64,000 nt of DNA from Candidatus Faecousia excrementipullorum (GTDB taxonomy: Bacteria; Bacillota; Clostridia; Oscillospirales; Oscillospiraceae). This document shows, one piece after another, positions 10,626 to 14,727 of the stretch (position 1 is the stretch's first letter; each line of letters opens with the position of its first letter). The notes under the pieces are model-generated. The model made no database searches, had not been told where the DNA came from, and saw only the letters and a list, made by a program, of their open reading frames with translations. The stretch lies in assembly GCA_018712825.1 (NCBI GenBank), contig DVGG01000026.1, positions 55,171 to 119,170 of the forward strand, written 5' to 3'. Both the position numbers and the translations under genes were made by a program.

Positions 10626-10709
10626 GCGAGAGTGTTGGAATGGTAGACAAGCACGTTTGAGGTGCGTGTGGTCAACGCCGTGTGGGTTCGAGTCCCATCT
10701 CTCGCACCA
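10626..10709 (+). tRNA. tRNA-Leu (anticodon GAG)
   Basis: Class II tRNA with a long variable arm. Acceptor GCGAGAG/CTCTCGC, anticodon stem CACGT/GCGTG around TTGAGGT (anticodon GAG, reading CUC), T arm GTGGG-TTCGAGT-CCCAT, and an encoded CCA end. The mobile-element remnant begins about 50 bases past its 3' end. Confidence 0.94.
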
Positions 10710-10912: not shown

Positions 10913-10993
10913 TTATTCGCTCAACTGCTTTTTCGCCTGGTGCAGGCCAGTTGCGGCCAAACCCGAAACACCGCCGACAGCCGCAGCTGTCAT
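10913..10993 (-). CDS. 26-aa ORF overlapping the remnant ORF by ATGA
   Basis: MTAAAVGGVSGLAATGLHQAKK... begins in an ATGA overlap with the stop of the upstream ORF and is back in the reading frame of the large 11.4-13.8 kb ORF. It may be a translationally coupled peptide or simply the frame-shifted tail of the same decayed protein. No function can be named. Confidence 0.35.
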   Translation of the reverse strand: MTAAAVGGVSGLAATGLHQAKKQLSE

Positions 10994-11424
10994 AGCGTAT
11001 CTTCGCCAAGTACACCGTCAGGCCTGCGCTCATAGCCATAGTGCTTCAGCACATCCTCCGGCAAAACATCCGGGAAAAACTTATTGACAACATCCAGATA
11101 ATTCGCTATACTGATAGTGGAACCAGTAAAGTAACCGGTGCTTTGCACCGTAGTGCTTGGGGATAAGCTCCCGGCTGGTTCCGTTTTTGCGTTTACAGAG
11201 TATATAACATCCATATCCACAAGTTCATTTGAATAGCGATTTACAACGAACGAGATGACATAATGCTCGTTCGTTTTATTTTTTGCGGCGGACATCAGGA
11301 TATAGGAATCTTTGATATGCTCATAACGAGGAAGCAGTTCGTTTATCTGAATTGCATTTTTCAGTATATCACCAACACGCTCCACAACCGGGCCTACGGT
11401 TTCTTCTCTGCGATCAAGGCCTTG
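10990..11424 (-). pseudogene. C-terminal module of the mobile-element protein, shifted one frame
   Basis: The open frame (up to 145 codons) holds a compact alpha/beta module, VGDILKNAIQINELLPR...YVISFVVNRYSNELVDMDVIYSVNAK...PEDVLKHYG, of a kind I associate with C-terminal modules of Clostridial phage and conjugative-element proteins, possibly a barnase/EndoU/RelE-like nuclease fold. There is no ATG near its beginning and no ribosome-binding site; the track start is a GTG. It directly follows, in the +1 frame, the stop of the large ORF, so it is best read as the frame-shifted continuation of that protein. Confidence 0.55.
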
Positions 11425-11688
11425 CTACAAACCATTTATAGGAATACTTTTGGTAATCCCGGCGCTGTTCCTGCTCCCAGAGATAATTTATAACAGAGGC
11501 CGCCTGTCTGTCTACATTGGCTCCAAACTGCTGTTCTTTATACAGCCGTCCGGCTTCTGCACGCTTCTCCTGGAGCTCGTGAAGCTCCGCCAGGCGGTCC
11601 TTGAAGGTTTGCAGCGCAGCCTGTTCTGCATCGCTCATGTCGGAAAAACCAGCATCGTTGGCGGCAGCTTCCAGAACATCCCGGTCAG

Positions 11689-11829
11689 TCAGAGGGGAGG
11701 TTCGCTCTTGGTATTGTCCTTTGAAAATTCTCCGGCCCGAACCCGCTTTTCCAGTGCTTCGGCGATTGCTTCCTTCTCCTCGTCTGTCTTGCCAATCATC
11801 TCTTTGGTAATTTCTAGCATTGTACTCAT
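11689..11829 (-). CDS. Nested small ORF 3 (46 aa) in alternate frame
   Basis: MSTMLEITKEMIGKTDEEKE... gives a highly charged, helix-forming peptide. It lies in the frame one base off the large ORF, over that ORF's low-complexity linker (RRGEGSNRRSTGKAGSG). A GGAG lies 12 bases before the ATG, so the start is the weakest of the three nested ORFs. Function unknown. Confidence 0.4.
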   Translation of the reverse strand: MSTMLEITKEMIGKTDEEKEAIAEALEKRVRAGEFSKDNTKSEPPL

Positions 11830-12273
11830 GGATAAACCCATCTCCGTACATGTGATTGAGAAGCTCAACCGCTTCTCCGTGCCCGGCCGTACGCCTTTCT
11901 TCATCAAAAATCCGTCCTTTCACATAAGCCATATTGGCATCATAGTTCTCTGCAAACACAATCACTTTGCTCAGGGTTGGCGCATTAAAATCTCCATCTG
12001 TGAACATGATTTTGTTATTGTGTTCTATCATGTATACGCCATTTTTATTCCGGGGAACACTGTAATTGCGCTTGTTCAGGTCTGCAATCACTTCATAGAA
12101 TCTGGCTCGATCCGTCTCATCAATGATGAAATTTTCATAAGCCCAATTTGTGGAATCTGTGGCATATCCTTCATCGATGTAGTCCCGGCGCTGCTCCTGA
12201 ACCTCATCATCCAAAAGCTGAATGAGGTTCCCGTCATCGTCCAAGACCAGGGCGCCGCCCCGAATGGCTTCGC

Positions 12274-12477
12274 TTAGTTCTTCTCCGCTGCCAAATCCAT
12301 AGTAATCATCAAGATATCCTGCGGTGTCGCCCTCCGATTCTCCGCCATCCAGGACATCAGCCGGTCTCGCTTCTTTGGCGTATCCATCGCCAACATTATC
12401 CCAATCGTTTCGTCCTCGCTGCACCCCATAATCTTGAGCCATCTGACTAAATGTTTCTGTGCCGGTGTAAGCTCCAC
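12274..12477 (-). CDS. Nested small ORF 2 (67 aa) in alternate frame
   Basis: GTG at 12477 is preceded by AAAGGAG at 7 bases, a good initiation site. The peptide (VELTPAQKHLVRWLKIMGC...MSWMAENRRATPQDIL...) is well composed, helical, with no low-complexity, and looks like a genuine small soluble protein. It overlaps the linker after the second module of the large ORF. The track ORF begins 99 bases earlier with implausible sequence. No function assigned. Confidence 0.5.
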   Translation of the reverse strand: MELTPAQKHLVRWLKIMGCSEDETIGIMLAMDTPKKRDRLMSWMAENRRATPQDILMITMDLAAEKN

Positions 12478-12993
12478 TTTCGTACTCCTTTCGCAACTTC
12501 CGCAAGTATTTCTCATTGCCAGCAATCTTATACTTCTCAATCTTTCCGTAAGACATATACCCGGTTGCTTCCACAAGATAGATATGATTTGCTGTACTTA
12601 TGACAATTCTTTTCGTCTGTCCGGTTTTTAAGCTGCTGGTTTTATTGGCAAGGGAACGGTTGAATACCGACCATTCCCGTGCTCCTTTGGGCTCATTGGG
12701 GTTCTCATATTTTCTGCGCTGCTCCTGCTCCCAGAAATCATCTGCAACAAAGGTGCCATCCTGGATCGCCTGCACATCTTCAATCAGAAGACCAACCATA
12801 TCTCCCAGCCATCTGAACCGACCATCGTTTTCCAGGAGGACACGGTCTCCCTGCATAGCCTCATAGAACTGCCGGGCCATTTCCGTAACGGCTTCCCTGC
12901 GGATGTCCTCATCGGAAATATCTCCTTTTGCAATTTTCCCCAAGTACAACTCTGCCTCATCGCTACCATAGGTATAAAGGTCAAAACAATCTA

Positions 12994-13143
12994 CTATTTG
13001 TTCTTGTCGCTCTCCTCCGATCTCTTTCCAGCTCTTCGCAGGTTCTGCCTTTGATAGACTACTTCCGCTCCTTTTTGTATTTCCTTCTCCGACCAATCCG
13101 GGTGAATCTTTCTCAGAATTTTCACCATTTGTTCCTTCGTCAT
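12994..13143 (-). CDS. Nested small ORF 1 (49 aa) in alternate frame
   Basis: ATG at 13143 sits behind AGGAGAAAGGT, a strong ribosome-binding site inside the large ORF. The peptide MTKEQMVKILRKIHPDWSEK... looks like a real helical protein and ends in a charged tail. The overlapped part of the large ORF is low-complexity Gly/Ser/Glu/Arg linker. Same alternate frame as the other two nested ORFs. Function unknown. Confidence 0.5.
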   Translation of the reverse strand: MTKEQMVKILRKIHPDWSEKEIQKGAEVVYQRQNLRRAGKRSEESDKNK

Positions 13144-13844
13144 ACCTTTCTCCTCTCTCCGAATTTCCTCTGTTTTGTCCCTGGGCAAATTCAGTCGTCT
13201 TCTCAGTTGCAACAGTCAGCTGGTAATTCTCCACCGCCTGTTCGGCAACCTGGTCAAACATCTTTACAATGTTCTCCACATAGCGGACGGTTTCCCCCAC
13301 CTGCTCCTTCAAGGCATTTGCCTCTCTGGAACGGTTCTTTCCCAGGGAATCGAAATAGCTTCTCAGGCCCTCAACAAATTCCTTCAGTTTTTCCATTAAC
13401 TTCTGGAAGATGCTCTTATGTTTTTCCGCAAGATTCTGAACAAAATGACTGTCCGGCAGAATATCCGTCATGGCCTCCGCCACTACTTCCCGGCTTGCCA
13501 TGTCATAGGAAAGGCCGGCTGCCTGCTTTGCCTCCACCAGGTCGTCCACATTCTCCCCTCTTTCACGAAGGGTATCGAAAACCACCTTTCTGAATTCATT
13601 GTACTGCACCGGGTTCCACTTTTCAATAAAATGTGTGAACTCATGGGCAAAGGTGCGCAGCATTGTATATTTTGCCAGATTGCCAACATCGTGCTTGCCG
13701 TTGAGGCCTGCGTTGATATCGATGTAAATGGTGCCGGGTTCGCCTCTTTTGAATTGGCCCTGGGCGCCCTGGAAATTCCCACTTGCATCCATTTCAGACT
13801 GATACAGCACAATGTCAATGCCGGTAGCTTCCGCAAAAGTACTG

Positions 13845-13899: not shown

Positions 13900-14727
13900 T
13901 CAGCCTTTTTCCGGAAAGTATTTTTTCTTCATCTGGTGAAGTGTTTCCAAAGACTCGGTGCCCCGCTGTCCCAGGCGGTCGCTGACGGCAACCACCAGGG
14001 CATCCACCATGGCTGCCGGGGCAGTCAGGGAATGATACTCCTTCTCCTCGCCCCGGTACACAAACAGGCTGATATCCGTCCGCTCCCGGGCAGGAATGAT
14101 GGTACGGCTGACAAATGCCATGGTTTGGTAGCCCGCATCCTTCCCGTGTTCCAGGATAATCCGTCCCTCCCGGGACAGCTTGGAAAAGCTGAACATCACC
14201 ACAAGATCTCCCTGTCCAGCCTGCACCAGGCCTTCCAACAGCTCGGAGCCGCCGGACGGCAGCAGCACAACCGGCAAGCCCAGCCGCCGCAGACGAAATG
14301 CCAGCATCTGAGCCAAAGAGCAGGAGGCGTTTTTGCCGTGGAGGAAAATCCGTCTTGCGGAAATCAGTGACTCCACCCCCCGGTCAAATTCCTCCGGGCG
14401 GAGCTGCTGTGCGGTTTTTTCCAGATACAATCTCTGGCGTTCCAGCCATGCTGCCGGGGAAAAGGCCCCATCCTGGGACAGGGTTCCGGCAATTTTGGCT
14501 GCCGGCCCGGAGGCCTGCTCCATTACCATGCCTTTCAGGGCCTTGAAATCGGCACAGCCTGCATGGCGGGCGAAGCGGGAAACAGTGGCATCGGAAATTT
14601 CCAGCCGCTGGGCCAGCTGTCCGATGGAAGAAAAGAGAAAACCGTCGGGATTGGTGTTGATATAATCAAGAATCTTTTGCTCCGCCCGGGTCAGCTCTGC
14701 CGCAGGCACGTTCAGGGAAAGTACCAC
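13900..14727 (-). CDS. MurR/RpiR family transcriptional regulator
   Basis: 275 residues: an N-terminal RpiR-type helix-turn-helix (SIGQLAQRLEISDATVSRFARHAGC) and a C-terminal SIS sugar-phosphate-binding domain (IFLHGKNASCSLAQML...VVMFSFSKLSREGR). Family members sense phosphosugars and control their catabolism or transport. It is the last gene of the ECF-transporter operon, 9 bases after the inositol-monophosphatase-like gene, so it probably regulates this operon in response to a phosphorylated ligand. Confidence 0.9.
   Translation of the reverse strand: MVLSLNVPAAELTRAEQKILDYINTNPDGFLFSSIGQLAQRLEISDATVSRFARHAGCADFKALKGMVMEQASGPAAKIAGTLSQDGAFSPAAWLERQRLYLEKTAQQLRPEEFDRGVESLISARRIFLHGKNASCSLAQMLAFRLRRLGLPVVLLPSGGSELLEGLVQAGQGDLVVMFSFSKLSREGRIILEHGKDAGYQTMAFVSRTIIPARERTDISLFVYRGEEKEYHSLTAPAAMVDALVVAVSDRLGQRGTESLETLHQMKKKYFPEKG

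Follow-up and report, generated by a model that had tools for sequence, protein, structure and literature searches.

Small genes nested out of frame in giant phage genes of gut Clostridia, probable antidotes of the domains they follow

The DNA analysed here is a stretch of 64,000 nucleotides from Candidatus Faecousia excrementipullorum (contig DVGG01000026.1, positions 55,171 to 119,170; hereafter the window), which holds on its minus strand the remnant of a polyvalent-protein gene, with three small open reading frames (ORFs) named s1, s2 and s3 nested inside it. Nested small genes of this kind recur in giant phage genes of gut Clostridia and their phages, where they are conserved, look like real proteins and are probably matching antidotes. 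For the cassettes of the s2 type, the favoured reading, judged fairly probable, is that a toxin-like domain is followed by its own antitoxin, overprinted on the large ORF.

Regarding the window, a first-pass annotation made from its letters alone had reported three nested ORFs in one +1 frame of an ORF of about 800 codons, the first two with good ribosome-binding sites, and all of this was found again: s1 (13143-12994, minus strand) has 49 amino acids (aa), an ATG start and the strong Shine-Dalgarno (SD) site GAGGAGAAAGG; s2 (12477-12274, minus strand) has 67 aa, a GTG start and the SD site AAAGGAG; s3 (11904-11689, minus strand) has 71 aa, counted from its best start, ATG 11904. The start given before for s3, 11829, was corrected: it is probably an internal ATG, because the ATG at 11904 and its frame are preserved in the s3 counterpart of a congener, G135 (L028:4663-4872, minus strand; 96% aa identity). 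Synonymous shuffles of the large ORF, with a lax SD rule, yield ~2 such +1 ORFs, so that three of them are not beyond chance by counting alone; homology and small-frame conservation lift s2 and s3 above it, and s1 has neither. On this support, s2 and s3 are predicted to be genes, s3 being supported and the s2 family well supported. Searches of viral contigs, of phages and of 245 genomes at the order level turned up no homologue of s1, only marginal matches (E 0.006 or worse). Its assignment to the family of Rv0078B-related antitoxins (PF18993) was rejected, with 18.2 bits against a curated cut-off of 27.1; papers place Rv0078B in toxin-antitoxin work on M. tuberculosis. The s3 profile, run on 245 class genomes, matched the window's own genome only.

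As for the s2 family, it was collected with profiles of the small protein alone, by scanning all six frames of viral contigs and Clostridia genomes. The s2 protein as query retrieved relatives in three order-level genomes (the locus L007 was already known through a large-frame search), a seven-protein profile gave 14 further places in 391 class genomes, and a 21-row profile added L094, L096, L098 and L099 from 265 more draws. After merging, the family counts 28 distinct members. A larger ORF in +1 encloses 21 of them to at least 95% and three more in part, four are not enclosed in this way, and none is in +2; among the four, L098, in frame within a 308-aa ORF, is probably a false match. The later finds L094, L096 and L099 are likewise +1. 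L003, L005 and L007 entered through the large frame, but the small frame brought in nearly all members, hence the +1 relation was not built into the search. Typically, the s2-type ORF stands directly behind a small alpha/beta module.

Viral contigs fetched through module A, the first module of the window's large ORF, revealed more nested +1 proteins, which form the families G1, G2, G3 and G4. G1 is TnpV-like, with seven distinct versions including L109, again in +1; the matches to TnpV of Pfam (PF14198) have E 7e-5 for G1 and E 4.7e-6 for G3. Three nested genes occur in L048, three in L050 and four in L033. The pattern noticed in the window, small ORFs over Gly/Ser/Arg linkers after modules, recurs in unrelated loci, typically following a small module. 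In G1 and G2 the nested protein persists although different modules stand directly upstream of it. Queries with s2, the L045-type protein, the module and G1/G4 had no match among phage or plasmid records, and s2-type proteins found nothing convincing in PHROGs and NCBIfam. Near the nested ORF of L034, a frame at 1932-2378 has a metallopeptidase-like HELGH motif.

Selection was read from the position of substitutions: given the +1 shift, the wobble position of each large-frame codon coincides with the second position of a small-frame codon. Pooling 13 nested pairs, changes at large-codon positions 1/2/3 number 372/268/220 in the overlap against 230/206/523 in flanks of at least 40% identity (p 1.6e-35, kinship ignored). 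The large-frame wobble is thus the least variable position within the overlap and the most variable outside it, and the overlap shows the order expected of a small-frame gene. Alternative alignments of 11 pairs kept this order (297/191/177 if aligned by the large frame, 295/195/166 as DNA); individual pairs differ, with G4 and L050/L094 strong, L045/L096 and L014/L018 nearly flat. Between s3 and its G135 counterpart the changes are few, 3/2/2, or 3/1/1 from the shorter start against 1/5/18 upstream (p 0.008), so the support for s3 rests on its conserved start, frame and product. Purifying selection on the nested frame, named in the first-pass annotation as a check of its proposal, is accordingly seen in the s2 family and in G1-G4, and for s3 by few changes only.

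Two further counts bear on the nested frames. In 43 nested ORFs, 3 of 1123 contexts have the T in front of AA, AG or GA that would create a stop in the large frame, against 301 of 2010 elsewhere; the count is partly circular, several cases having been defined with the help of an open large frame. Matches of at least five bases to the SD core precede 22 of 25 nested starts against 21 of 368 NTG codons located upstream within these loci (p 7e-17); the nested starts were chosen by eye, a procedure that may prefer good sites, and two of the 25 listed positions are not start codons. Stops scattered through the alternative frame, the pattern that would speak against nested genes, were not met in the module homologues examined, which carry the nested ORF; the test is biased, most of them having been fetched through the small ORF. 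For module C, which precedes s3, the one close homologue, that of G135, keeps s3.

Regarding structure, s2 modelled with 20 relatives is a bundle of four helices (predicted local distance difference test, pLDDT, 94.5; predicted template-modelling score, pTM, 0.80). Its fold matched only general helical bundles in the PDB and, among the viral models of BFVD, one entry, A0A8S5NB41 from Myoviridae sp. ctUX613, an uncharacterised protein of 64 aa (template-modelling scores 0.91/0.95, E 5.8e-4). Searches of solved structures by sequence returned none for the module and only matches with E above 0.1 for s2. The module of L050, which precedes an s2-related nested gene, was modelled as a helix, three strands and a helix, with pLDDT 70; its five best matches on a second look are RelE/HigB2 (RelBE among the top), then Cami1, PfiAT and BrnT, all weak (Z at most 5.1), and Foldseek gave E above 0.1. 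The toxin fold of the module is a lead, because Z values near 5 can reflect a common arrangement.

Module and small protein vary together: in 19 s2-type cassettes their similarities are correlated (Mantel r 0.69, p 5e-5). L048 carries three cassettes in one gene, each of which groups with cassettes of other genomes, a pattern not explained by shared descent of the whole gene. Joint inheritance of the partners holds for the s2 type and not for G1. In addition, the small frame outlives the large one: it is open in L040, L042, L049 and L034, where the large frame has stops in or near the overlap, and in L041 and L044, where the large frame is absent. Such survival suits a protection gene, but equally any useful small gene.

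The explanation favoured for these data is that polyvalent proteins of Clostridia phages would be assembled from swappable cassettes, the s2-type cassette consisting of a toxin-like domain in the large frame and then a separate small gene, in +1, over the low-complexity linker of that domain. The giant protein would arise from one initiation, and the four-helix protein from a second one on the same mRNA, at an SD site inside the 3' end of the domain; the small protein would act as antitoxin or immunity partner and silence the domain in the producing cell. By overprinting, a single recombination event could move domain and antidote together and leave the giant ORF unbroken. At the level of sequence, these cassettes show conserved small-frame coding, a kept frame relation, SD sites and co-diversification with the domain; they point to production of both giant and small proteins, and suggest for the small protein of s2-type cassettes the part of antitoxin or immunity partner. 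Whether this is a general strategy, by which phages chain toxin domains and write each antidote out of frame in the following linker, one swap exchanging both and low-complexity linkers being the shadow of hidden genes, is evenly balanced.

The idea of a toxin-like module with an antitoxin partner, put forward in the first-pass annotation, therefore survives in part. It suits the s2 type, given the co-diversification, the weak RelE/HigB likeness and the survival of isolated small genes, and it is not supported for module A, which carries an HEFTH motif and resembles a metallopeptidase rather than a toxin. Similarly, the notion that each module has its own partner applies best to the s2 type and less well to G1 and G2; s1 is without homologue. 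Several points count against the antidote reading: s1 is unconfirmed in the genomes and the viral and phage sequences searched; some nested proteins are not the antidote of their neighbour, because the G1 protein stays even though the upstream module varies; the likeness to RelE is weak and was obtained with the module of a relative, with a model of pLDDT 70, and not on that of the window, whose module B is tied to the L050-type family by a weak profile match alone (E 0.016); the p-values overstate independence because pairs and members share ancestry; and the window copy, truncated, may be silent.

Among other explanations, the nested ORFs could be real overprinted phage genes that are not antitoxins, namely small anti-defence, regulatory or assembly proteins using linkers as free coding space. 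This is possible though rather unlikely: the coding evidence is independent of function, and G1 belongs near TnpV, a family of obscure role, and does not follow its module, whereas s2-type module and small protein co-diversify, the module weakly resembles toxins of toxin-antitoxin systems, and solitary s2-type genes persist on chromosomes. If the small genes alone were real, with the large frame above them a non-coding by-product and the modules separate genes, one would understand why the module frame of L034 stops early in the overlap and why the large frame is broken or absent in L040-L042, L044 and L049; yet in G135 and in viral contigs unbroken large frames of 2000-3000 aa run through the nested genes, with conserved modules on both sides, and large-frame stops are avoided, which makes this reading very improbable. 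Finally, linker codon make-up could leave the +1 frame open by chance, the peptides not being made. This is the default for s1, and counting does little to oppose it, as 146 nested ORFs were observed against 123 expected from synonymous shuffles with the lax SD rule, an enrichment so small that counting was dropped as evidence. For the nested ORFs as a whole, chance is the least credible explanation of all, facing small-frame homology across families, the substitution pattern, SD enrichment and the fold, and for s2 and s3 the evidence already contradicts it.

Phage genes nested out of frame are familiar from Rz/Rz1 and phiX174, where they serve lysis or other functions at single fixed positions; the out-of-frame nesting is shared, and the loci described here differ from these two cases by their repeated cassettes. 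The polyvalent proteins of phages and conjugative elements are giant multi-domain ORFs with peptidase, ADP-ribosyltransferase (ART), helicase/methylase and LPD domains (Iyer et al. 2017, PMC5512222). The related loci resemble them in that their host ORFs match ART-PolyVal, LPD3 and MuF_C in Pfam; together with the 3000-aa ORF of G135, these matches give the very long ORF joining several unrelated domains by which polyvalent proteins are recognised. The small genes within the ORF are the new element, and the words overlap and overprint are absent from that text. In the MuF polymorphic toxins of temperate phages, a small ORF that accompanies the toxin domain is the putative immunity gene (Jamet et al. 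2017, PMC5576092), and one locus here, L043, carries MuF_C; in that system the small ORF comes after the toxin gene, whereas in the present loci the large ORF continues around it in a different frame and may hold several of them. In the Rpn toxin (PMC10327210), the antitoxin gene lies within the toxin gene and has its own translation start; RpnS, however, corresponds to the C-terminal domain of the toxin itself, whereas the two proteins here have different frames and no relationship in sequence. As for TnpV, its strong matches in host genomes are open frames of the usual gene size; the G1 and G3 proteins are divergent, and nested.

No published description of a nested-antidote arrangement was found in the open-licence full text searched, in agreement with the first-pass annotation, which knew of no such system. 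Gene finders normally leave uncalled an ORF that lies wholly inside another, so that, if the interpretation is correct, a class of small phage proteins would be missing from annotation and likely overlooked by ordinary gene finders. It would also provide candidate antidotes to phage toxin domains, account for the low-complexity look of polyvalent-protein linkers, and yield repeated natural examples of out-of-frame overprinting with both frames testable.

The large ORF of the window (11414-13810, minus strand) encodes 798 aa from a GTG and is open to 13879; it consists of modules A, B and C with linkers, and this piece has no Pfam match above cut-off. Two segments, aa 1-206 and 538-772, share 94-95% identity with parts of the 3000-aa ORF of G135 (L028:725-9727, minus strand), which is intact and has an extra module between the two matching segments, and about 1000 N-terminal residues present in G135 are missing. 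Directly downstream, the small ORF 10990-11385 (minus strand), without Pfam match, is probably the displaced tail of the polyvalent protein, which we presume from similar tails. Because the N-terminal residues are missing and the presumed tail sits in a separate ORF, the large ORF is most simply read as a decayed prophage remnant, in which s2 and s3 remain open.

Module A (13190-13810, minus strand), ahead of s1, has the motif HEFTHFIEKW; its counterparts in G135 and 17 viral loci are 52-95% identical to it. Module B (12404-12757, minus strand), ahead of s2, bears a distant resemblance to the modules whose models are RelE/HigB-like. Module C (11830-12199, minus strand), ahead of s3 and overlapping its start, is 94% identical in G135; judged by eye, L033 has a module resembling it, with a nested ORF of its own. 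A 21-base repeat of the EQEQRR type has three copies at module borders (12707-12727, 12179-12199 and 11453-11473, minus strand), and the motif is also found at the module C border of G135; these repeats are possible recombination joints between modules. The remnant is flanked by a tRNA-Leu(gag) gene (10626-10709, plus strand), its likely integration site, and on the other side by an rpiR-type regulator (13900-14727). The remnants in L032, L033 and the window each lie directly behind a terminator-like hairpin after a host gene, and that of L033, behind a ClpC-like gene, has repeated short palindromes of the GGGAACCGTCCCC type (~1343-1370 and ~2350-2380), as a small mobile element might.
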